Below, in pieces: positions 129-63,710 of a stretch of 64,000 nucleotides of DNA. The notes beneath the pieces are model-generated. The model saw only the letters and a program-made list of their open reading frames with translations, was not told where the DNA came from and searched no databases. Every line of letters starts with the position of its first letter. Position 1 is the first letter of the stretch. Origin of the DNA: an uncultured Lentisphaerota bacterium (GTDB taxonomy: Bacteria > Verrucomicrobiota > Kiritimatiellia > CAIQIC01); assembly GCA_903889245.1 (NCBI GenBank), contig CAISWQ010000102.1, positions 1-64,000 of the forward strand. Reading direction: 5' to 3'. The position numbers and the translations under genes were made by a program.

Positions 129-202
129 GGCTTGGAAAAAACAGCGCGAGCTTTTCCCATCCTTGGAAAAACGCCTGTCCCGGTTTTCCAATCCCTGGAA
201 CG
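129..202. repeat. Phased TTCCAAG palindrome array, 3 units
   Basis: Units are centred near 130 (right half clear), 161 and 193, so the gaps are 31 and 32 bp. They lie just downstream of the stop of the minus-strand oxidoreductase gene. Bases 1-128 hold no gene: they contain a CCCCCC/GGGGGG palindrome at 1-14 and a 7-3-7 hairpin (CCAAGTG/CACTTGG) at 98-114. Neither is followed by a T-run on either strand, so no terminator is called. Confidence 0.85.
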
Positions 203-2990: not shown

Positions 2991-3318
2991 CTCTTCACTG
3001 CACCATTCCACCCCCTTCAAGCACCAGACACCTGCACCAAGGCATCCGCAGACATCACGCCAGGGCCACACCCACTGCCGAGCGCGGCGGATGCTAGGCA
3101 ATGGCCGGGGCCGGGTCAAGCACCGCGCGCGAACATTCGACCAGCGGTTGTAAAAAATTCCCCGGTCTCATTGACACGCCGTCTGTGATCTGGTAAGCGA
3201 CTCGCGGTTTCAACGCACAAGAAACCGCAAGCGGTGTGGCGGCGTGATGTCGTCATAGGAAATTTGGATGGTCGGGCCGCCATCCAGTAAATCGCATAAC
3301 GATTGACTGGAGGCTGTC
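2991..3318. other. Divergent intergenic region with two hairpins
   Basis: This gap separates the minus-strand PAS gene from the plus-strand glycan locus and holds no convincing gene. It contains a promoter-like pair (listed separately), a hairpin with an 8-bp stem GCGGTTTC/GAAACCGC at 3204-3228 and a 7-bp stem TGGATGG/CCATCCA at 3265-3286. Both hairpins would lie in the leader of the glycan locus transcript. No T-run follows either, so they are not called terminators. Confidence 0.5.
3171..3199 (+). promoter_or_regulatory. Candidate sigma-70-type promoter of the glycan locus
   Basis: A perfect TTGACA is followed after 17 bp by TAAGCG. The -35 element is consensus but the -10 is weak. The same TAAGC-type -10 follows the perfect -35 of the deoA gene in this window, which gives modest support. 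The predicted leader would be about 115 nt and include two hairpins. Confidence 0.4.
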
Positions 3319-8740: not shown

Positions 8741-8773
8741 AAAACCGGGTTCTCCAAGACATGGAAAACCCGG
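8741..8773 (-). terminator. Intrinsic terminator after the GYF_2 gene
   Basis: On the minus strand a stem CCGGGTT/AACCCGG is followed at once by TTTTCATTTTT. It sits 27 bp after the GYF_2 gene stop and before the exchanger gene. The loop contains TCCATGTCTTGGA, a degenerate relative of the dispersed TTCCAAG palindrome. Confidence 0.65.
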
Positions 8774-10608: not shown

Positions 10609-10627
10609 GCCGCGACTCTAACCGCCT

Positions 10628-10738
10628 TTCCAAGGCTTGGAAAGCGCCGACGCGGTTTTTCCAAGCCTTGGAAAAAGTCCGCGCCAGATGGTCCAGGCCC
10701 CGGAACTTGCCCGGGTAATTGTTCCGGGCCTTGGACAA
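10628..10738. repeat. Phased TTCCAAG palindrome array, 4 units
   Basis: Centres at 10635, 10666, 10698 and 10729, so gaps of 31, 32 and 31 bp, total 94. The units are TTCCAAGGCTTGGAA, TTCCAAGCCTTGGAA, GTCCAGGCCCCGGAA and TTCCGGGCCTTGGAC. The array fills the region between divergent deoB and speA. Confidence 0.9.
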
Positions 10739-10753
10739 CGGCGCATCGTTTTC

Positions 10754-10781
10754 TTGCAAGCGGGGGAAAAGTTTGTAGCAT
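10754..10781 (+). promoter_or_regulatory. Candidate speA promoter
   Basis: TTGCAA and TAGCAT are separated by 16 bp, each matching four or more of six consensus positions. The predicted start of transcription would be near 10788, giving a leader of about 36 nt with a GGAG ribosome-binding site before the ATG at 10824. Confidence 0.45.
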
Positions 10782-14616: not shown

Positions 14617-15426
14617 ATGAAAACGGCGGACAGCGCGCAGGTCGCCGAGTGGGTGCTCGCCGCCGACCATATCGCCGTCCTGACGGGCGCGGGCATCTCG
14701 ACGGCATCCGGTATTCCCGATTTCCGCTCCGCCGCCGGCCTTTACGCGACGCGCGCCAGCGAAAACATTTTCGACATCGAACTTTTTCGGCGCGACCCGG
14801 CGCCGTTCTACACCTTTGCGGCCTGGTTCTATCCGACCCTCCTGAATGCCCGCCCGAACGCCGCGCACACGGTGCTGGCCGAGTGGGAGCGCGGGGGCAA
14901 GAAAATCGAGATTGCGACGCAGAACGTGGACGATCTGCACCAGCGCGCCGGCTCGCAGCGCGTTTACCCCGTGCATGGCTCATGGCTGACGAGCCGCTGC
15001 CTGAAATGTTCCAGGGATTGGAAAACGATGGAGGCTGTTTTTCCAGGGATTGGAAAAGCTCACGGAAATTTTTCCGGGCCTCGGAAAAATCCCGGCGAAA
15101 TTTTCCAAGCCTTGGAAAAAGAAATACCACGCTGTGATTGCGGCGGCGTGTTGAAGCCGGACATCACGTTCTTTGGCGAGGATCTGCCGGGGACGGCGTG
15201 GGCCTGCGCGCTGGAGGCGATGCAGTCTGCGCCACTGATCCTCGTGCTGGGCACCAGCCTGACGGTCTTCCCCGCCGCCACCCTGCCCGACTATCGCCAT
15301 ATGAACGCACGGCTCGTCATCATCAACCGCGACCCAACACCACTGGATGATGCGGCCCACGCCGTCCTGCGCGGCGAATTAGCGGAAGTGATGGCGCAAC
15401 TTCATGCGCGCGCATTTCTGGCGTGA
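14617..15426 (+). CDS. NAD-dependent protein deacylase (sirtuin) with repeat-derived insert
   Basis: 269 residues of the Sir2 family. NAD-binding GAGISTASGIPDFRS (residues 24-38), the TQNVDDLHQRAG block, the catalytic His in VHGSW, and the C-terminal LVLGTSLTVFPA are intact. The zinc module is unusual: CLKC and CDCGG are separated by about 41 residues where about 15-20 are typical, and the DNA for this extra stretch is a four-unit array of the dispersed TTCCAAG palindrome (15009-15117) translated without a stop. KPDITFFGE resumes directly afterwards. The zinc loop is probably longer but functional; whether the insert is tolerated or affects substrate choice is unknown. Follows nadB and a small membrane gene. 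Confidence 0.9.
   Translation: MKTADSAQVAEWVLAADHIAVLTGAGISTASGIPDFRSAAGLYATRASENIFDIELFRRDPAPFYTFAAWFYPTLLNARPNAAHTVLAEWERGGKKIEIATQNVDDLHQRAGSQRVYPVHGSWLTSRCLKCSRDWKTMEAVFPGIGKAHGNFSGPRKNPGEIFQALEKEIPRCDCGGVLKPDITFFGEDLPGTAWACALEAMQSAPLILVLGTSLTVFPAATLPDYRHMNARLVIINRDPTPLDDAAHAVLRGELAEVMAQLHARAFLA
15009..15117. repeat. Phased TTCCAAG palindrome array, 4 units, inside the sirtuin gene
   Basis: Centres at 15016, 15048, 15079 and 15110 (gaps 32, 31, 31; total 94). The units are TTCCAGGGATTGGAA twice, TTCCGGGCCTCGGAA and TTCCAAGCCTTGGAA. It is translated in frame between the two Cys pairs of the sirtuin zinc module. Confidence 0.92.
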
Positions 15427-19572: not shown

Positions 19573-19580
19573 CCTCCCCT

Positions 19581-19689
19581 GTCCAAGGCCTGGAAAATTT
19601 TGCGCGTTTTTTTCCGGGCCTTGGAAAAAATGAGCCGCCGTTTTCCAGGGTTTGGAAAACGGCGGTGTGGTTAGTTCCAATGCTTGGAA
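19581..19689. repeat. Phased TTCCAAG palindrome array, 4 units
   Basis: Centres at 19588, 19619, 19650 and 19682 (gaps 31, 31, 32; total 94). It fills the space between the convergent lipoprotein and argD genes. Unit three is embedded in a longer stem, GCCGCCGTTTTCC/GGAAAACGGCGG, which could form a hairpin in RNA from either strand. Confidence 0.9.
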
Positions 19690-19693
19690 CTTT

Positions 19694-21777: not shown

Positions 21778-23085
21778 ATGCTTCCGCAGTGGCTCATCGA
21801 GAAGAAGCGCGACGGCGCGGCCCTCGCGCCGGACGAAATCCGCGAGTTCATCGGCGGCTTCACCGCCGGCGCGATCCCCGACTACCAGATGGCCGCGCTC
21901 GCGATGGCGATTTTCTTCCGCGGCATGACGCCCGACGAAACCGCCGCGCTGACCGACGCCATGATGCGCTCCGGCGACGTGCTGGACACCTCGGCGCTCG
22001 CCGCGCCGAAGATTGACAAGCATTCCACCGGCGGCATCGGCGACAAGATTTCCCTCGTGCTCGCGCCGCTGGTTGCCTGCTGCGGCGTCGCCGTGCCGAT
22101 GATCTCCGGCCGCGGGCTCGGCATCACCGGCGGCACGCTCGACAAGCTCGAGGCCATCCCCGGCTATCGCACCAACCTCGCGACGCGCGAATTCCTCGAC
22201 GTCGTCGCGCGCTTAGGCTGCTCGATCATCGGCCAGACCGACCGGCTGGCGCCCGCCGACAAAAAACTGTACGCGCTGCGCGACGTCACCGGCACCGTGC
22301 CCTCGATCCCGTTGATCACCGCGAGCATCATGTCCAAGAAACTCGCCGCTGGCCTGGATGGGCTCGTACTCGATGTGAAATGCGGACGCGGCGCGTTCAT
22401 GAAGGAGCGCGCCGCCGCCGCCGAACTCGCGCGCAGCATGGTACGGGTCGGCCGCGCGATGGGCAAAAAGATGTGCGCGCTGCTGACCGCGATGGATCAG
22501 CCGCTCGGCCGCACCGCGGGCAACGCTCTGGAGATCGTCGAGACCTGCGAGGCGCTCCAAGGGCGCGGCCCTGGCGATCTGATGGCCGTGACGCTTGCGC
22601 TCGGCGCGAAGATGTTGCAACTCGCCGGGCTGGCCAACTCCTGTGATACCGCCCAAGCCATGCTCTCCGCGCACTTGAAGTCCGGCGCAGCCTGGCGCAA
22701 ATGGCTGGAGATGGTTCGCCTCCACGGTGGCGACACTGCGACGTTGGAAAACACAGCCCGTCTGCCGCGCGCGAAAATCGTCGAGCCGCTGCCGGCGCCG
22801 CAAGCCGGCTTTGTTGCGCAAGCCGACGCCGAATTGATCGGCAAGGCGGGTCTGCTCCTCGGCGCAGGCCGGACGAAGACCACCGATGCCGTGGATCACG
22901 CCGTCGGCGTCAGCGGCCTCGCCAAGATTGGTGAACGCGTGGAACAAGGTCAGCCGCTGGCTCTGCTTCACGCCAACGACGCTGCGCTCCTCGCCGAGGC
23001 GCGGCCACTCATGCTGGCGGCCTTCCGCGTCACTGAACGTGCCGCACCGGGACCAGAACTGATTCTGGAGGAGATCACGTCATGA
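21778..23085 (+). CDS. deoA: Thymidine/pyrimidine-nucleoside phosphorylase
   Basis: 435 residues, full length. Splits thymidine (or pyrimidine nucleosides) with phosphate. The N-terminal helical domain has QMAALAMAIFFRGM, the phosphate site KIDKHSTGGIGDKISLVLAPLVA, then SGRGLGITGGTLDKLE and DVKCGRGAFMKERAAA; the C-terminal domain starts near 345. Whether it is DeoA or the broader Pdp type cannot be settled here. First gene of a salvage operon: punA overlaps it by four bases and cdd overlaps punA. The products feed deoB. Confidence 0.94.
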   Translation: MLPQWLIEKKRDGAALAPDEIREFIGGFTAGAIPDYQMAALAMAIFFRGMTPDETAALTDAMMRSGDVLDTSALAAPKIDKHSTGGIGDKISLVLAPLVACCGVAVPMISGRGLGITGGTLDKLEAIPGYRTNLATREFLDVVARLGCSIIGQTDRLAPADKKLYALRDVTGTVPSIPLITASIMSKKLAAGLDGLVLDVKCGRGAFMKERAAAAELARSMVRVGRAMGKKMCALLTAMDQPLGRTAGNALEIVETCEALQGRGPGDLMAVTLALGAKMLQLAGLANSCDTAQAMLSAHLKSGAAWRKWLEMVRLHGGDTATLENTARLPRAKIVEPLPAPQAGFVAQADAELIGKAGLLLGAGRTKTTDAVDHAVGVSGLAKIGERVEQGQPLALLHANDAALLAEARPLMLAAFRVTERAAPGPELILEEITS

Positions 23086-23939
23086 TGATGGATAAACATC
23101 AACTGGCGCGCGCGGCCGAGTATGTGCGGCAGCACTGGCCGATGGCAAAACCGCGTGCCGGGTTGATCCTCGGCTCCGGCTGGGATATGGCGGCGGACTT
23201 CTTTCACAAGCGCGCGACGCTCTCCTACGCGGTGATTCCCGGCCTCGGGGCCTCCACGGTGGCAGGTCACAGCGGACAGTTGCACTGGTGCGAGGCGGCC
23301 GGCGTCGAGACGTTCCTGTTCCATGGTCGCCGCCATTTCTACGAGGGCGCGGACTGGACCGCCGTCGCCACGCCGGTGTATCTGATGAAGCAGTTCGGCG
23401 TGAAGGTGCTGATGCTGACCAACGCCGCCGGCGGGCTGCACGAGAATCTCGACGCGGGTGACCTGATGGTGATCGCCGACCACATCAACCTGATGGCCGA
23501 CAACCCCTTCATCGGGCCGCACGATCCCGCGTGGGGGCCGCGCTTTCCCGACCTCTCGCAGGTCTATTGTCCCAGGCTTGGAAACCGGCTGGAGCGGATT
23601 TTCCAAGCCTTGGAACTCCCGTTCCGCAGCGGCGTCTATGCGGCGGTCACCGGCCCGGTGTTCGAAACCCCGGCCGAGGTGCGGATGCTGCGCGCGCTCG
23701 GCGCCGACGCGGTCGGCATGTCCACCGTGCCGGAGGCCGTGCTCGCGCACAGCGCCGGCATCCGGCTCGCCGCGCTCGCGTGCATCGCCAACCGCGCCGC
23801 CGGCCTGCACCCGCGCGAGCTGACGCACGAGGATGTGATAGCGACCACGCAGGCGGCGCTGCCGCGCCTGCGCGGCGTGTTGGAAAATTTCTGGAAGGAG
23901 CTACCCGATGAACTCACAGCAACGCACCCGCCTGCTTGA
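23082..23939 (+). CDS. punA: Purine nucleoside phosphorylase (trimeric type)
   Basis: 285 residues of the trimeric PNP/MTAP family. Phosphate loop LILGSGWDMAADFF, VAGHSGQLHW, FHGRRHFYEG, LTNAAGGLHENLDAGDLMVIADHINLM and GPVFETPAEVRMLRALGADAVGMSTVPEA all fit. Residues around 163-183 (YCPRLGNRLERIFQALELPF) are encoded by two units of the dispersed palindrome, exactly where ordinary PNPs have a helix of the same length between FPD and GVY. The fold is probably kept. Overlaps deoA (ATGA) and cdd (32 bases), so translation is coupled. Confidence 0.94.
   Translation: MMMDKHQLARAAEYVRQHWPMAKPRAGLILGSGWDMAADFFHKRATLSYAVIPGLGASTVAGHSGQLHWCEAAGVETFLFHGRRHFYEGADWTAVATPVYLMKQFGVKVLMLTNAAGGLHENLDAGDLMVIADHINLMADNPFIGPHDPAWGPRFPDLSQVYCPRLGNRLERIFQALELPFRSGVYAAVTGPVFETPAEVRMLRALGADAVGMSTVPEAVLAHSAGIRLAALACIANRAAGLHPRELTHEDVIATTQAALPRLRGVLENFWKELPDELTATHPPA
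23569..23615. repeat. TTCCAAG palindrome pair inside punA
   Basis: Centres at 23576 (degenerate left arm) and 23608, 32 bp apart. Translated as PRLGN and FQALE within punA. Confidence 0.8.
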
Positions 23940-24967: not shown

Positions 24968-25297
24968 GATCACACGCGAGCGAACAACCGGAACCTGGGC
25001 AGGCGCGCAGCAATGGTTCCAGCGCATGGTGTGCGTGGCTTGCGGCGGCCACCTGACAACCGCCTGGTCCTGTCGCCAAGGCAGCCCCGTGGCTCCCGTT
25101 TCCGCAGCAAGGATCACCGGCAGTTTCCCAAGCCTTGGAAAACTCTACCGCAAAATTTCCAAGGCTTGGAAAAACACGGCTTGCCACGCTGGCGGCGCGC
25201 AGATATTTTGCCCGCAACATTATTGCGCCGTGCCGCGGATGCGGCACCGCACGGGTGAGGCGGAGCAAGCAACGAGAACCAGCAGAAGGAGCCAGCC
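24968..25297. other. Intergenic region before the MFS permease gene
   Basis: 330 bp without a supported gene. It holds the two-unit palindrome pair at 25126-25171, a 7-4-7 hairpin GTGCCGC/GCGGCAC at 25230-25247 without a T-run, and AGAAGGAG as the ribosome-binding site of the permease. Small ORFs here are read through the palindromes and show no protein-like pattern. Confidence 0.5.
25126..25171. repeat. TTCCAAG palindrome pair
   Basis: Centres at 25133 and 25164, 31 bp apart, in opposite central-base orientation (AGCCT then AGGCT). Confidence 0.88.
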
Positions 25298-33778: not shown

Positions 33779-33822
33779 CACGGCGGATGGTTTCGCGGAC
33801 TCTGCCGCACGAACCATGTTGT

Positions 33823-33899
33823 TTCCAAGGCTTGGAAAAAGTTGTGTGAGATTTTCCTAACCTTGGAAAATCGGCCGGAAAATTTTCCAATGTTTGGAA
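33823..33899. repeat. Phased TTCCAAG palindrome array, 3 units
   Basis: Centres at 33830, 33861 and 33892 (gaps 31 and 31) in the gap between the large surface protein and the DUF1080 gene. The final unit abuts AAAGAAAGG, the ribosome-binding region of the next gene. Confidence 0.9.
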
Positions 33900-33915
33900 A
33901 AAGAAAGGCAGTTCG

Positions 33916-38544: not shown

Positions 38545-38562
38545 AACGTTCCGGACGGAAAT

Positions 38563-38608
38563 TTCCAGACCTTGGACGGAGAAACGCCGGCTTTTCCAAG
38601 CCTTGGGA
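38563..38608. repeat. TTCCAAG palindrome pair
   Basis: Centres at 38570 and 38601, 31 bp apart; a shorter TTCCGGACGGAA palindrome precedes them at 38549. Located between the LysM lipoprotein stop and the start of the hypothetical gene. Confidence 0.85.
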
Positions 38609-38641
38609 AACCGCCCCTGATGCACCGTAGCCACCTCAACC

Positions 38642-39403: not shown

Positions 39404-41896
39404 TCATGGCCGCGGCAAGGCGGCTTGCAGGCGCAGCAGTTGGGCGCGGAGTTCGGCGGGCAGTTCGCTGTTGGTCAGCGCGCGGCAGCAGGTCTCCGCG
39501 GCAGCGGCGGACTGGCCGGCCTCGATTTGTGCGTTGGCCAGACCGAGCCACGCCTCGCCTTGGGCGGGATTCTGCTGCGTGAATTTTTCCAGCGCGGCCA
39601 GCGCGCCGGGCGCATCGCCGGACTGCCGCAGATAGTAGGCGTGCGCGGAGGCATAGCGCCACTCGCGCGGCGCCCACTCGGTCGCGCGCGCGGCCCACGC
39701 GGCGCCGTCACGCGGATTCGCAGTCCCGGTGATGACCGCGAGGTTGAACGCGGCGGTCGGCTGGCGCGGCTCAACTTTCAAAACCTGCAACCATGCCTGC
39801 CGCGCCTCCTCCATCCGCCCTTGCTCGCCGAGCAGCAGCGCGAGGTTGAGATGCACGCCCGAGTTACTGGGTGCGTGTACCAACGCCGCACGCAGGCAGC
39901 GCTCGGCCTCGGTGTTGCGCCCAAGCTGGTTCAGCGCGAGCGAGATGTTGACCGCCGGCGGGACGAAATCGGGACGCAAGCGCAGCGACGCCTCGAAGTT
40001 GGTCACCGCGGTGTTCAGCTCGCCCTTCGTCATGTGATAATTGCCGAGGTTATAGAGCGAGACCGAGTCGTCGGGCCGCAGGTTCAGGCTCGTCTCCAGC
40101 TCGGCGGTGGCCTGGGCGACGGCGGCGCGATCCTCTGGCGCGAGTTGCGCCGGCGGACAGCCGGCAAGCGCCTGCGCGGCGCGGACGCGGACGAGGCGGA
40201 AGTCATCGCGCACGCCGCGCAGCAGCGCGGCGAATTCCACGCCACCGAAACGGCCCTCCAACCCGGCGCAGGCGGCGGCGCGCACGAGCGGCGATGACGC
40301 CTCGGAGGCGGTGCGCGCGAGGGCCGGCCACTTGGCGGCGTCGGAGCAGTTCTGCAACAGGCGGATCAAACCGACGGCGACGGCTTCTTCGTGGTTGGTG
40401 GCAGTGATGTAGGAAAACATCGCCGCGCTCTGTGACCAGTCGCCGCGCCGCGCGGCTTGCACGAGCGCAGCCCAGCGCAAGGTCTCGGCCTGGTAGTCGT
40501 CCTTGTGCCACTGGCGGACGCAGGCCTCGACCCACTCCGCTTTCTTGTCGGCATGGCAGAGCAGGCAGGCGAGCGTCGAGCCGAACTGCTTGGCGGCGGC
40601 GGGCATCGGCGGGCGGAACGAGTGATCGCTACGGCGCATCCGGCCGAACTCGGTCATCGGCATGTGACAAGAAACGCAGGTCGGCGAGTTCGTGCCCGGC
40701 GGATGATGCGTGTGCTGCTCCGGCGCAGCGACGCGCTCTTTGTGGCACGGCAGGCAAGACTTGTTCGCCTCGGCGCCGGGGAAGCGGTTGCGACCGCTGG
40801 AAGTGTGGCAGTGGACGCAATCGAGATTCGAGAGGCGCGCGCAGCGATTCATCCGCCAACTGGTGAAGGTGTAGTTCTCGCCGAGGTCGCGGCCTTCGGG
40901 GAAGAAGTCGGGATCCTCCAGGCATGTCAGGTCAAAGTGGTCAAAGAAGCGCTCGCCCGGCGTGAACGCCGGCGTCAGCGGCGAGAGCTTGGCGTGGCAG
41001 GTCGAGCACATGTCGTTGCGCAACTGCGGCGGCAGCGTGCGCACGACGATCAGCTTGACGTCCTTGATCGGTTGGTTGGTCGGCGTCGCGCGGCAGAGGC
41101 GGACGTGCTCCGCGCCGGGGCCGTGGCACGTCTCGCAGTTGATGCCCGGCTCCAGCCACGTCGTCGCGTAGGAATCGTCCGCCGCGTTGTAGCGTGTCGC
41201 GAGCTGGCTGACGTGGCAGGCGAAGCAGGCGGTGTTGAACGTGTACATTCGATCAGTCCATTCCAGTGCTTCGTCTCGGCGGTCGCCGAAGTGGCGCACG
41301 GCGCTGGCGGCGGTATCGAACCAGCGGCGGCGCGGCACATCGTAGGCAACGGGCAGCACTTGCAGGTGACCACGCTCCAGCGGCGTTAGCAGGTAAAAGA
41401 CGTTCTTGCCGCCCATGACCACGGTGATCGGATAGCGCCGCTCGCCCTGCGGCCCGGTCTCGATCACCGCGCCGGACGGCTGGTCATAGCGGAACTGGCG
41501 CGGACCGATGACGACGGGATTGGTCTGCGGGAGGAACTGCGCCTGCGCGAGCGCCGGCGTGTACGGCTGCATCGCGAGGCCGTGATGCGAGGTGGACCAC
41601 TTCTGGTAGAAACTTTCGTGGCACTCGCGACACTCGCGCGAGCCGACGAAACCGGACGCGGGCGTGCGGTGCGCGGCGAGCCACCACGCGAGGCCGGCGC
41701 CGCACAGCAGCATCACACCGAGCAGCAGCAGTGGCCGCGCGCCGCCCCGCCGCGTGACACGGGCTTCCAGCCCGTGCGCTGCCCTCGCCGTCAAGACTCC
41801 ACGGGCGGGACGCCTGTGCCACTCGGAGAGTTTTTTCCAAGGCTTGGAACGTGGGGCGGGCTGTTTTCCCAAGGCTTGGAACTGTGGTGTGTGCAT
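39404..41896 (-). CDS. Octaheme cytochrome c / TPR protein with repeat-encoded N-terminus
   Basis: 830 residues. A membrane anchor at about 53-75 is followed by eight CxxCH heme sites: CRECH, CFACH, CETCH, CSTCH, CVHCH, CLPCH, CVSCH and CLLCH. After a HEAT-like helical stretch (about 440-560), TPRs follow (DSVSLYNLGNYHMTKGELNT, LVHAPSNSGVHLNLALLLGE). The first ~50 residues (FQALGKQPAPRSKPWKK, HRRPARGVLTARAAHG) are translated from two dispersed repeat families, so the ancestral start may have been later; no internal ATG precedes the anchor, and a TTG near residue 36 is an alternative. It starts 24 bp after tatC. Likely periplasmic electron carrier; terminal partner unknown. Confidence 0.85.
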   Translation of the reverse strand: MHTPQFQALGKQPAPRSKPWKKLSEWHRRPARGVLTARAAHGLEARVTRRGGARPLLLLGVMLLCGAGLAWWLAAHRTPASGFVGSRECRECHESFYQKWSTSHHGLAMQPYTPALAQAQFLPQTNPVVIGPRQFRYDQPSGAVIETGPQGERRYPITVVMGGKNVFYLLTPLERGHLQVLPVAYDVPRRRWFDTAASAVRHFGDRRDEALEWTDRMYTFNTACFACHVSQLATRYNAADDSYATTWLEPGINCETCHGPGAEHVRLCRATPTNQPIKDVKLIVVRTLPPQLRNDMCSTCHAKLSPLTPAFTPGERFFDHFDLTCLEDPDFFPEGRDLGENYTFTSWRMNRCARLSNLDCVHCHTSSGRNRFPGAEANKSCLPCHKERVAAPEQHTHHPPGTNSPTCVSCHMPMTEFGRMRRSDHSFRPPMPAAAKQFGSTLACLLCHADKKAEWVEACVRQWHKDDYQAETLRWAALVQAARRGDWSQSAAMFSYITATNHEEAVAVGLIRLLQNCSDAAKWPALARTASEASSPLVRAAACAGLEGRFGGVEFAALLRGVRDDFRLVRVRAAQALAGCPPAQLAPEDRAAVAQATAELETSLNLRPDDSVSLYNLGNYHMTKGELNTAVTNFEASLRLRPDFVPPAVNISLALNQLGRNTEAERCLRAALVHAPSNSGVHLNLALLLGEQGRMEEARQAWLQVLKVEPRQPTAAFNLAVITGTANPRDGAAWAARATEWAPREWRYASAHAYYLRQSGDAPGALAALEKFTQQNPAQGEAWLGLANAQIEAGQSAAAAETCCRALTNSELPAELRAQLLRLQAALPRP
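41758..41823. repeat. ACGGGCTTCCAGCCCGT palindrome element inside the cytochrome gene
   Basis: ACGGGCTTCCAGCCCGT (41759-41775) is followed by CACGGGCGGGACGCCTGTG (41799-41817), paired palindromic blocks of a type seen dispersed in PVC genomes. It is translated as the HRRPARGVLTARAAHGLEAR segment of the cytochrome. Confidence 0.65.
41835..41881. repeat. TTCCAAG palindrome pair in the cytochrome N-terminal coding region
   Basis: Centres at 41842 and 41874, 32 bp apart, translated as SKPWK and FQALG at the N-terminus of the octaheme cytochrome. Confidence 0.88.
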
Positions 41897-44162: not shown

Positions 44163-45356
44163 TTACTTCGCCGTCACCGACGGAGAATACCAGTCGCCGG
44201 AAAGTTGGGCGAACGCTACAGGCGGGTCGCCCAATGTGTCAAGCAGGTAAATGGTCGAGCGGTAGTTCTGCGTGCGGCTGCAAACGATGTGCCGGCCATC
44301 GGGCGCCCAGCACGGATCCTCGTAGCTGGCGCTGTCGCCGGGCGAGACCATCTTGCTATCGAGCGTGTTCGGGTCGAGCACGCAAATCTGGAACTTCCCG
44401 AGCAGGCTCGCGTAGGCGATCAGCCCGTTCGCGCCCCAGTTCGGCGCGACGTTCTGCGAGCCGCGCGTCGTCAGCCGCTTGGGTGCGCCGCCGCTGCGCG
44501 AGATCAGGTAGAGCTGCGGATGCGCCGTGCTCGCCTGGTCCGAGGTGTAGACGAGGTGATTGCCGTCCGGCGCCCACGAGGGCGAGGCGATCGCCGCGCG
44601 CGTCTCGGTGGTCAGGCGCACCGGCGCGCCGCCGCCGAGGCCGCGCACGTAGAGGTTCGGACTGCCGTCCTTCGAGAGCGCAAGCGCCACGAGGCTGCCA
44701 TCGGGCGAGATCGCGCCACCGGAGTTCATGCCGCTGTAGCTGGCGAGTACGCGCCGGCTGCGCGTGGCCAGGTCAATCAGGTAGACATCCGGCCAGCGCT
44801 TGAGATAGGAGGTGTAGGTGATGCGTTGCCCGTCCGGCGCCCAGCGCGGCGCGAGGCAGATGCTGCGGTCGCTGGTGATCTGCTGCAGATTGCCGCCATC
44901 CATGTCGCAGACATACAGTTCCTTCGCGCCGCTGCGCGTGCCGACCATCACGATGCGCCCGCTGAACATCCCCTTGCGGCCGATCGCGGCGAGGATGTCA
45001 TCGGCCACACGGTGCGCGAGGCTGCGCGCCGCCGTGCTCGCCACCGTGTACTGCTTGCTCAAGAGCCAGCGCTGCTGCGATGCGCTGTAGAGTTGAATCT
45101 GCGCCGTGAGCTGGCCGCTATCCTGCGCCGTACCCACGAGCGAGAACTCCGCGCCCGGCGCCGCCGGTGTGAACCAGCCGGAGCGGATCAAATCATCTTC
45201 GAGCACGCGCTTGAATTCCGACGGCGCGGTGCCGCTCGCCACGAGGCGCGACCAATCAATGCCCGCCTTCGTCGCGCCGCCCTTGACCACACGCACCTGC
45301 GCCTCCGCGGCGCACATGCCGAACGCCAGCAACATCAGCAAAATTTTCCGCGTCAT
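44163..45356 (-). CDS. tolB: Tol-Pal system translocation protein TolB
   Basis: 397 residues. Signal peptide (KILLMLLAFGMCAAEA), an N-terminal domain to about 150 and a six-bladed PD40 propeller with LAPRWAPDGQRITYTSY, GAISPDGSLVALAL, ASPSWAPDGNHLVYTS, VAPNWGANGLIAYAS and EDPCWAPDGRHIVCS. It is the periplasmic partner of Pal and of the TolA/TonB-like protein. A four-unit palindrome array separates it from the upstream tonB-like gene. Confidence 0.95.
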   Translation of the reverse strand: MTRKILLMLLAFGMCAAEAQVRVVKGGATKAGIDWSRLVASGTAPSEFKRVLEDDLIRSGWFTPAAPGAEFSLVGTAQDSGQLTAQIQLYSASQQRWLLSKQYTVASTAARSLAHRVADDILAAIGRKGMFSGRIVMVGTRSGAKELYVCDMDGGNLQQITSDRSICLAPRWAPDGQRITYTSYLKRWPDVYLIDLATRSRRVLASYSGMNSGGAISPDGSLVALALSKDGSPNLYVRGLGGGAPVRLTTETRAAIASPSWAPDGNHLVYTSDQASTAHPQLYLISRSGGAPKRLTTRGSQNVAPNWGANGLIAYASLLGKFQICVLDPNTLDSKMVSPGDSASYEDPCWAPDGRHIVCSRTQNYRSTIYLLDTLGDPPVAFAQLSGDWYSPSVTAK

Positions 45357-45370
45357 AAAACCTTTCAGGG

Positions 45371-45479
45371 TTCCAAGGATTGGAAAACCGAACCATGCCT
45401 AGTTCCAACCCTTGGAAATTCTCACGAAATTCTTTCCAAGCCTTGGGAAAATCCGCGCGGAAATTTCCAAGGCTTGGAA
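45371..45479. repeat. Phased TTCCAAG palindrome array, 4 units
   Basis: Centres at 45378, 45410, 45441 and 45472 (gaps 32, 31, 31; total 94). It lies inside the Tol-Pal operon, between the tonB/tolA-like gene and tolB. Confidence 0.92.
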
Positions 45480-45492
45480 AACGGCGGGTTCT

Positions 45493-46320
45493 CTACATCA
45501 AGAGCTTCTGCAATTCAAACTCAATCGAGATGTCCTGCGAGGGCCCAATGAACTGCGGCGGCAACGGCTTGAGGCGCCTGACGGCCTGCACGGCGCGTTT
45601 GACCGAATCATCCATGATCTTGTTGCCGGATGGACGCGACATCTGCCAGTCGCTGATGGTGCCATCGCGCTTGACGCGGATGGTCACGGTCGCGATCGGA
45701 TTACCCGCGTTCGCGAGCCCGCTCGGCTGCTGCCACGCCTCGTACATGATCTGCTTGACCATCGCGTAGTACCACGCCACGGGCGAGTCCGCGCCGCCAC
45801 CGCCCCCACCCCCGCCGCCGATAGCCGCGCCGTAGCCGGCGCGCCCACTGACGCCGCGCGACTTGCTGCTGCCCACGGTGTGCGCCGCGCCGGAAAGCAA
45901 CGCGCGAATCTGGTCGGCGGTGAGCTTGGGTCCCTTCGTCTTGCTCTTGGCCTTGGCCACCAGGTTGGTCCGCGGCGGCGTGGGCGCTTTCACCTGCGGC
46001 GTCGGCTGCTTCGGCTTGGCTTTGACCTTGGTCGGCTGCTTGGGCTTGATGGGCTCGTGGATCACATCCTTCGGCGGATCGGGCGGCGGCGGAATATCGT
46101 CCGGGATTTTGACGTCCGGCGGCTTGGGCGGGACGGGCGCGACCGGGCCGGGCTCGCCGCCGCCACCCGCGGGGCCGGAGAGATCAATCATCGTGATCTC
46201 TTCCCGCATCTTCAGCGGGCGCGCGCCCATCAGAAAAAACTGCACCACTACGAACGCCCCGATCACCACCAAGTGCGTGATGGCGGTTCCCGCGTAGACA
46301 CGCCGGAACTGGTGGTTCAT
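45493..46320 (-). CDS. TonB/TolA-like energy transducer
   Basis: 275 residues. One N-terminal membrane helix (TAITHLVVIGAFVVVQFFL), a long Pro/Lys-rich spacer (PPKPPDVKIPDDIPPPPDP, IKPKQPTKVKAKPKQP), a Gly stretch and a C-terminal TonB-type domain (SPVAWYYAMVKQIMYEAWQQP...ATVTIRVKRDGTISDWQM, ending ISIEFELQKLLM). The position between tolR and tolB shows it fills the TolA role, although the C-terminal domain looks TonB-like. Overlaps the exbD/tolR gene by four bases. Confidence 0.9.
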   Translation of the reverse strand: MNHQFRRVYAGTAITHLVVIGAFVVVQFFLMGARPLKMREEITMIDLSGPAGGGGEPGPVAPVPPKPPDVKIPDDIPPPPDPPKDVIHEPIKPKQPTKVKAKPKQPTPQVKAPTPPRTNLVAKAKSKTKGPKLTADQIRALLSGAAHTVGSSKSRGVSGRAGYGAAIGGGGGGGGGADSPVAWYYAMVKQIMYEAWQQPSGLANAGNPIATVTIRVKRDGTISDWQMSRPSGNKIMDDSVKRAVQAVRRLKPLPPQFIGPSQDISIEFELQKLLM

Positions 46321-47552: not shown

Positions 47553-47577
47553 TCGCCGCGCGGCAAGCGCGCGGGTT

Positions 47578-47623
47578 CTCCAAGGCTTGGGGAAATACCG
47601 GTTTGTTTTTCCAAGCCTTGGAA
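47578..47623. repeat. TTCCAAG palindrome pair
   Basis: Centres at 47585 and 47616, 31 bp apart, upstream of the tolQ promoter. Confidence 0.88.
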
Positions 47624-47791
47624 CGCCTGCCCGCACACCAGGCCCCGCCCGAGCATTAACTCCCCCGGCAGCGCTTAATTCACCAGGCCCGTTTTGCCCC
47701 TGACCGTGCCTCATCCATGCTTGAGTCTGGAGACGTGACAAGATGAACAGGGTCCCTCTCCGGGCAAACCCCCAAGGCGTGGAACGCAAGC

Positions 47792-54655: not shown

Positions 54656-54736
54656 GGTCTCCTCCGGTCGTTATTGCCCTCGGCGCACCCGGCGCCACGG
54701 GCGCGAATGCTACCAACCCCGCCCCGCCCTGTCCAT

Positions 54737-54845
54737 GTCCAAACCTTGGAAAAATCCGCCCGCCGGTTTCCAAGCCTTGGGGAAAATGACGCTGAAATTT
54801 TCCAAGCCTTGGAAAAACCGCGGTTTCCATTTCCAATCCCTGGAA
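54737..54845. repeat. Phased TTCCAAG palindrome array, 4 units
   Basis: Centres at 54744, 54775, 54807 and 54838 (gaps 31, 32, 31; total 94). It fills the gap between the argB stop and the accB start; its last unit touches the argB stop codon region. Confidence 0.92.
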
Positions 54846-54846
54846 C

Positions 54847-55719
54847 TCAGGGAATGATCTCGGTCCCAACGCCCTGGTCGGTGAACAGCTCCAGCAGCAG
54901 CGAGTGCGGCAGGGCGGCATCAATGATGTGGGTCTTGCGGACGCCAGCCTTGATCGCCTTGAGCGCGCCGCCGATCTTCGGCAGCATCCCGCCGGAAATC
55001 ACGCCGCGTGCAATCAGATCCTCGACCTCGCTCATCTGCAATGTCGAAATCAGCGACGACGGGTCATCGAGTTTCGCGAGCAGGCCGGGGACATCCGACA
55101 GGAAGACGAGCTTGCGCGCCTGTAACCGCTCGGCAATCGCGGCGGCGGCCTCGTCGGCGTTGATGTTGTAGATGTGGCGCTCCGGCCCGCGGCCGAGCGG
55201 CGTGATGATGGGCGTGATGTCGGCCTGGAGATAGGCCTTGATCGGCTCGGCATCGAGTTCGACCACGTCACCCACATAGCCCCAGTCGAGCGTCTCGCCG
55301 GTGGCGGAATCCTGCTTGGTGTGCTTCTTGACCTTCAGGATGTCCTCACCGTGGATGCCGCGCGCCTTGCAGCCGAAGCCTTCCAGCGTGGTGACGAGGT
55401 CGGGGTTGACCTCCTGGTTGAGCACCTGCTCGACGATGCGCATCGAGGCTTCGTCGGTGACGCGCAGGCCCTGCACGAAGTTCGGCTTGAGGCCGGCTTC
55501 CTTCATGCGCGCGTTGATCGCTTTGCCGCCGCCGTGGATCACCACCGGGCGCAAGCCAACGCACTCCATGAACGCCACGTCCTGCAGCACGCTCTCGACG
55601 CAGGCCTTGTCCTCCATCGCGCTGCCGCCGAGCTTCACGACGACCGTCTCGCCGCGGAACTTCTGGATGTAGGGCAACGCCTCGACCAGCACTTCCGCCT
55701 TCTGGATCACTTTCTTCAT
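54847..55719 (-). CDS. argB: Acetylglutamate kinase
   Basis: 290 residues. Phosphorylates N-acetylglutamate in arginine synthesis. Motifs of the amino-acid kinase family: VVKLGGSAMED, VIHGGGKAINARMKEAGL, FVQGLRVTDEASM, YNINADEAAAAIAERL, and ISGGMLPKIGGALKAIKAGVRK. The ORF track adds 150 upstream codons that are an argJ shadow; the ATG at 55719 lies five bases after the argJ stop. Confidence 0.96.
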   Translation of the reverse strand: MKKVIQKAEVLVEALPYIQKFRGETVVVKLGGSAMEDKACVESVLQDVAFMECVGLRPVVIHGGGKAINARMKEAGLKPNFVQGLRVTDEASMRIVEQVLNQEVNPDLVTTLEGFGCKARGIHGEDILKVKKHTKQDSATGETLDWGYVGDVVELDAEPIKAYLQADITPIITPLGRGPERHIYNINADEAAAAIAERLQARKLVFLSDVPGLLAKLDDPSSLISTLQMSEVEDLIARGVISGGMLPKIGGALKAIKAGVRKTHIIDAALPHSLLLELFTDQGVGTEIIP

Positions 55720-57470: not shown

Positions 57471-57545
57471 CCACAGATTTTCACCGATTAACACCGCTGG
57501 GAATCTGTGCAATCTGTGGATGGTTTTCCGAGGGCTTGGAAAACA
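57471..57545. repeat. AATCTGTG repeat and one TTCCAAG unit
   Basis: CCACAGATT...AATCTGTGCAATCTGTGG followed by a TTTTCCGAGGGCTTGGAAAA unit centred near 57534. The AATCTGTG block is shared with the stem at 57174-57208. Confidence 0.6.
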
Positions 57546-63475: not shown

Positions 63476-63549
63476 GGCAAAAACGGCGGGAACAGATAGC
63501 AGAACCGCCCCTGCCTGTCGAGCCGGCGTCGGCCGCTGCCGCGCTCCGT

Positions 63550-63626
63550 TTCCAAGCATGGGAACGTGCGAGGCGTGGTTTTCCAAGCCTTGGAAAATAT
63601 CACCGGGGCTTCTTCAAACCTTGGAA
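63550..63626. repeat. Phased TTCCAAG palindrome array, 3 units
   Basis: Centres at 63557, 63588 and 63619 (gaps 31 and 31), upstream of proB on the minus strand. Confidence 0.88.
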
Positions 63627-63710
63627 GAAATGGTCTTCAGGATCGTAGTGGTTTGGGTCGGTGCGAAAGTGGTGGGGCCAAGTGTCAATAAACCGGTAGT
63701 TTCGCACAAG

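Follow-up and report, generated by a model that had tools for sequence, protein, structure and literature searches.

NrdR boxes reportedly follow the consensus acaCwAtATaTwGtgt, a 16-bp sequence of even length. Noc sites are TTTCC..GGAAA-like palindromes scattered over the chromosome, and most nucleoid proteins of bacteria bind DNA with weak specificity. The NrdR tetramer needs whole helical turns between its boxes (spacers of 15-17 or 26±1 bp), and these boxes are tandem palindromes 31-33 or 41-43 bp apart (PMC12051234). The Lrp-type regulator BarR has four to five semi-palindromic sites of 15 bp, separated by spacers of 15-17 bp, that are thought to be bound by a DNA-wrapping octamer (PMC10201364). 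For the uptake sequences (USS), even spacing is described as an expected outcome of uptake drive (PMC7811141), and an even spacing of uptake sequences has likewise been noted in another study (PMC1939737).

We analysed palindrome arrays in a window of 64,000 nucleotides (contig C102:1-64000) from the draft assembly of an uncultured Lentisphaerota bacterium (G000; 5.26 Mb in 125 contigs). The four-unit array at 45369..45481 has its unit centres at 45378, 45410, 45441 and 45472 (gaps of 32, 31 and 31 bp) and sits between a PD40/TolB-like gene (44163-45356, minus strand) and a TonB-like gene (45493-46320, minus strand). The gene models are our own hexamer-based calls with approximate starts, and some of the units assigned to genes may be mis-called. 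A scan with a position weight matrix (PWM) recovered the clusters listed in the original prediction, with their coordinates and their 31/32-bp gaps, save for the unit at 130. This unit is only a half-match that falls below the PWM threshold, while its neighbours at 161 and 193 were recovered as a two-unit array (152..202, gap 32 bp). The scan also added two weak units to the earlier list, a single one at 8750..8768 (centre 8759) and one at 10761.

The unit at 10761 is a weak fifth unit next to the four-unit array at 10626..10738 (centres 10635, 10666, 10698 and 10729). This array lies in a divergent intergenic region, and its syntenic site in the relative G062 also has an array (C5:22541-22585). 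The other four-unit arrays are found inside the intact sirtuin (SIR2) gene (array 15007..15119; gene 14617-15426, plus strand), in a convergent intergenic region (19579..19691; centres 19588, 19619, 19650 and 19682) and in a tandem intergenic region (54735..54847; gaps 31, 32 and 31 bp). Three-unit arrays with gaps of 31 and 31 bp occur at 33821..33901 (tandem intergenic) and at 63548..63628 (divergent intergenic). One two-unit array (23567..23617) lies inside the intact purine nucleoside phosphorylase gene (23082-23939, plus strand), and four more occupy tandem intergenic regions at 25124..25173, 38561..38610, 41833..41883 (gap 32 bp) and 47576..47625 (gap 31 bp). A single unit is present at 57525..57543. 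The window also carries an nhaA-I RNA motif at 3232-3285 on the plus strand (RF03057, 46.3 bits, above the gathering score), upstream of a gene whose start lies at about 3319.

In the source genome the unit is an odd-length palindrome, TTTTCCAAGSCTTGGAAAA. Its symmetric PWM reads TTTTCCAAG-S-CTTGGAAAA, with CC/GG at ±4 and ±5 conserved at 98% and no GTAG or CGTC end tag. The whole assembly contains 2,466 units with at most two mismatches to the core, compared with 15 matches to the reversed pattern. The genome has a GC content of 64.7% and the unit ends are AT-rich; a control on the reversed sequence rules out composition as the cause. Array statistics were taken from 1.44 Mb of this assembly (27% of the genome), where 836 units fall into 334 arrays: 70 of one unit, 132 of two, 53 of three, 57 of four, 20 of five, and one each of seven and eight. 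Divergent, convergent and tandem intergenic regions hold arrays at about the same frequency, and some arrays lie at gene ends or within housekeeping genes. Of the larger intergenic regions, about half contain one whatever their type, and no preference for a promoter, terminator or operon context was found in the 1.44 Mb. A literature search on the motif, and on palindromic repeats in this bacterial group, returned nothing relevant.

We observed that 467 of about 480 short gaps in the 1.44 Mb were of 31 bp (296) or 32 bp (171). The next commonest were 30 bp (9), 42 bp (8), 29 bp (3), 52 bp (2) and 65 bp (2), with single others. The genome-wide histogram thus has the sharp 31-32 bp peak on which the original prediction had staked itself. 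The mean three-turn gap of 31.4 bp corresponds to 10.46 bp per turn, and the rare other gaps lie mostly at 42, 52, 62-63, 84 and 94 bp, which are whole helical turns. Outside the three-turn class, 16 of the 23 gaps were within 1 bp of whole 10.46-bp turns (p = 7e-5), 42 bp being the commonest. Four-unit arrays had been claimed to span exactly 94 bp. This is true of all five in the window; however, among the 46 four-unit arrays with only 31/32-bp gaps, 25 spanned 94 bp, 12 spanned 93 bp and 9 spanned 95 bp. These counts agree with those expected from independent gaps (15.0/20.4/9.2/1.4), and neighbouring gaps showed no anticorrelation in the 1.44 Mb of the source assembly. A strict 94-bp rule was therefore rejected.

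In their gaps the arrays resemble NrdR box pairs, as both the 31/32-bp class (467) and the 42-bp class (8) fall within the 31-33/41-43 bp rule. The NrdR box is however of even length and has few sites per genome, whereas the unit described here is odd-length and differs in sequence. NrdR was present in 93 of 97 genomes, array-rich and array-free alike, and has a canonical Zn-ribbon in the array-rich genome G314; it was rejected as the binder on both counts. With the BarR-type operators of the Lrp/AsnC family the arrays share two to five regular sites, here at 31-32 bp, but such operators occupy one or a few loci whereas the arrays are genome-wide. All 12 Lrp-less genomes of the class are array-free, a distribution compatible with Lrp as the binder. 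The sole Lrp of the source genome is nevertheless unlikely to be the binder: its acidic recognition helix differs between members of the genus, although the motif stays the same. The units also recall the scattered palindromes of the Noc/ParB systems, but ParB is essentially single-copy in every genome, array-free ones included, and a ParB/Noc paralogue was likewise rejected. When we looked for an autoregulated binder gene beside the few arrays of sparse genomes, no recurring DNA-binding gene was found.

Conservation was examined by comparing orthologous arrays with matching spacing. Units were identical at 365 of 418 positions (87%), compared with 69 of 136 spacer positions (51%; p = 3e-17), in 11 comparisons that are not independent, as four are of one locus. 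Arrays remain in a given intergenic region despite changes in the number of units, in phase and in spacers, and between L043 and C28 the entire intergenic region is a three- or four-unit array whose spacers are unrelated. The units and the spacing are thus what is preserved, whereas the spacers can vary freely. It had been proposed that the spacing is what is selected; the spacing is indeed conserved, but so, strongly, is the unit sequence as judged from the PWM. Changes in the two half-sites were independent at nearly every position, with symmetric double changes at expectation; what is conserved is therefore not base pairing. The turn-quantised gaps, the independent half-sites and the conservation of both unit and spacing give good support to the predicted dimeric protein, which would sit on one face of the helix.

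We further scanned the draft genomes of the class, taken to be Kiritimatiellia, with a loose pair pattern, TCCN7GGA-N18/19-TCCN7GGA. Families f1-f7, f9, f10, f17, f22, f27 and f65 had roughly 20 to 1,481 pairs per genome, although pairs were nearly absent from some genomes in f9, f10 and f17. In some twenty further families of the class the count was 0-4 pairs, with reversed controls at 0-3, and with a stricter core the rest of the phylum was at background. The core exists in dialects, CCAAGSCTTGG (f1), CCAAACATTGG (f2), CCAATSATTGG (f10) and TCCGANNNTCGGA (f7), and exact-core pattern scans undercount diverged units in other families. The spacing also differs between species: the source genome mixes 31 and 32 bp, G062 and G314 have mostly 32 bp (65 of 74 gaps in G314), and G017 has 32 bp only among the listed pairs. 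Strict arrays were also seen on three viral-labelled contigs (L248-L251, IMG/VR), one of them with two arrays; these contigs may be host DNA or proviruses.

The arrays inside genes were informative on how arrays arise. In the sirtuin, the array encodes residues ~131-169, within the zinc-ribbon insert. This loop has about 21 residues more than that of the T. maritima Sir2, which equals 63 bp, or twice the array period, and appears to have grown in frame. Before such growth, the distance between the two outer units would have been 31 bp. Alignment blocks indicated that G062 has no sirtuin gene at this place, and that the junction carries a two-unit array instead. The purine nucleoside phosphorylase has no gap at its array when aligned to solved homologues, and we conclude that this array formed by substitution. 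Between L061 and contig C3 of the source assembly, in a coding region of 87% identity, one species has a two-unit array that the other lacks, with no indel; by a count made by eye on the alignment, 19 of 38 unit positions differ as against 1 of 12 spacer positions. In aroB (L039 versus C65; named from its translation) the array is read in frame as FFQTLEKHAALFSKPWKN. To judge from these alignments, arrays arise in place through substitution, even within intact enzyme genes, and are not inserted elements.

Arrays are evenly spaced along the chromosome. The distance between arrays averaged 4.0 kb with a coefficient of variation (CV) of 0.597, whereas arrays placed at random in intergenic regions, weighted by length, gave 0.765±0.037. 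Six distances exceeded 10 kb where 16.4 were expected. Among intergenic regions of 100 bp or more, 10% held an array when another lay less than 1 kb away, and 83% when there was none within 4 kb. The logistic coefficient for this repulsion was 1.80, against 0.10±0.16 under random reassignment; it was evident in both tandem and divergent regions, whereas convergent regions taken alone did not show it (p = 0.4). G314, a distant relative from another family with the core TTTCCAATSATTGGAAA, had a mean spacing of 3.4 kb and a CV of 0.395 (null 0.682±0.092). In G062 the spacing tended towards evenness, but its difference from the intergenic null did not reach significance (p = 0.13), and sparse genomes were not clearly even (G079, CV 1.09; G184, CV 0.67, p = 0.025). 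Arrays within genes had no clear tendency to fill stretches poor in intergenic regions (p = 0.17). One 9-kb array-free stretch (G000:C70 9485-18710, in L132) has 51% GC compared with 65% for the genome and few called genes, and is possibly acquired DNA.

The even spacing points to a function that is tied to distance along the chromosome, and a protein probably binds the chromosome at regular intervals. The reading we favour, to which we assign a probability of roughly 0.48, is that the arrays are phased multi-dimer binding sites of a putative architectural protein. Each palindrome would be the site of one protein dimer, and two to five sites set three helical turns apart would bring adjacent dimers onto a common face of the double helix. 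Such dimers may join into a tetramer or a larger assembly, or may wrap the DNA in the manner of octameric Lrp-type proteins. The protein would then mark or anchor the chromosome every ~3-4 kb, forming loops, supercoil boundaries or a chromatin-like scaffold, with a role that is chromosome-wide rather than in the control of particular genes. A fuller version of this proposal, which we advance tentatively, is a sequence-specific bacterial chromatin or 'ruler', in which selection would keep the phased arrays of an oligomeric protein ~3-4 kb apart, in intergenic and coding DNA alike, as the dialects drift between families of one class. The factor had been predicted to be a nucleoid or silencing factor. 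The array spacing of ~4 kb argues strongly, if indirectly, for the nucleoid part, while silencing found no support, since arrays are used about equally in all three types of intergenic region and inside housekeeping genes. Several observations stand against an architectural role: array density covers a wide range among relatives, from 1236 pairs in G000 through 53 in G053 of the same order to a single pair in G047, the arrays of sparse genomes are not clearly even, which is odd for an essential scaffold, the evenness in G062 is not significant and repulsion is lacking in convergent regions alone, and no binding protein was found among the candidates ParB, NrdR and Lrp.

The main rival, and a serious alternative even if we consider it rather unlikely, is a drive of the DNA-uptake type. 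A surface or pilus DNA receptor would prefer a phased pair of palindromes, and biased transformation (molecular drive) would spread mutations towards the motif until most fragments carried one array. This would account for the even spacing, the origin by substitution, the arrays in genes, the lack of a preferred context, the dialects and the variable density. The arrays are indeed similar to the USS/DUS of Pasteurellaceae and Neisseriaceae, which occur in thousands of copies, in and between genes, with species dialects and an origin by point mutation under drive; the high copy number combined with even spacing is shared by the dense genomes only, and not by G079. However, known uptake sequences are single, short, non-palindromic cores that are not helix-phased, whereas the arrays are palindromic, phased, multi-unit, mostly intergenic and very even. 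ComEC is present, and its length, which is bimodal across the class (about 520-600 versus 770-910 aa), largely follows array presence: ~770-910 aa in most array-rich families and ~415-606 aa in most array-free ones. No ComEC was seen in G115, whose arrays are few for a genome of that size. There are exceptions (f12 is long without arrays; f5 and f9 are shorter with arrays), and the pattern is suggestive but confounded with phylogeny. To our knowledge, competence has not been documented in this class.

A very large regulon, in which a transcription factor that oligomerises (of the Lrp, NrdR or LacI kind) would use the arrays as ordinary operators, appears improbable. The form of the sites is like that of such operators, and most relatives hold only ~20-230 pairs, which is the size of a global regulon. 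However, convergent regions hold arrays about as often as divergent ones, arrays are also found at gene ends and inside genes, regulation offers no obvious reason for the repulsion between neighbours at 2-3 kb, and the NrdR of G314 is canonical in its Zn-ribbon.

We give very little credence to a transposase-driven spread of a mobile or REP/MITE-like repeat. Like REP/BIME elements, the arrays are abundant, mostly intergenic palindromes that are sometimes clustered, with thousands of copies, and some of them share spacers or flanks. These shared flanks, however, trace to other repeat families of the same intergenic regions, and almost all spacers are unique. Unlike REP/BIME, the arrays are strictly phased and lack the GTAG/CGTC tag, RNA covariation and an insertion signature. 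Their even spacing and the in-place substitution within genes also argue against mobility. A MITE was rejected, as copies are not alike over their full length and comparison with relatives gave no clean insertion or empty site. Several such dispersed families share intergenic regions of G000 with the arrays, for example at L093 (75.7-75.9 kb of the window contig): GTGGAGCGYGACCTCCGGGCACG, TTTTTCTGTCTCCYGTTTTTCTGTCCACC, GAACATCGAACACCGAACATCGAAC, ACCGCCAAGACGCCAAG and GTAGGCCGCGTGACCTCACGCGG.

An RNA-level element, i.e. a terminator or processing hairpin, is barely credible and was rejected: the units are inverted repeats near gene ends, but compensatory changes are absent, the gaps are quantised by helical turns, the 3' side has an A-run rather than a T-run, divergent regions are used equally, and an Rfam search gave no match at the arrays.

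Under the architectural and the uptake reading alike, protein-coding genes are reshaped to carry a DNA signal. Should the arrays be uptake sequences, they would be the first that we know of outside the two classic Gram-negative families, and of a new form, that of phased palindromes. We know of no bacterium whose chromosome is punctuated regularly by strong, phased, multi-site protein-binding arrays. If the architectural reading is correct, this group would have a chromatin scaffold that is written into the sequence and carries its own rule of distance. Whichever of the two readings holds, the roughly 1,200 natural arrays per genome offer material for the study of helix-phased cooperativity.
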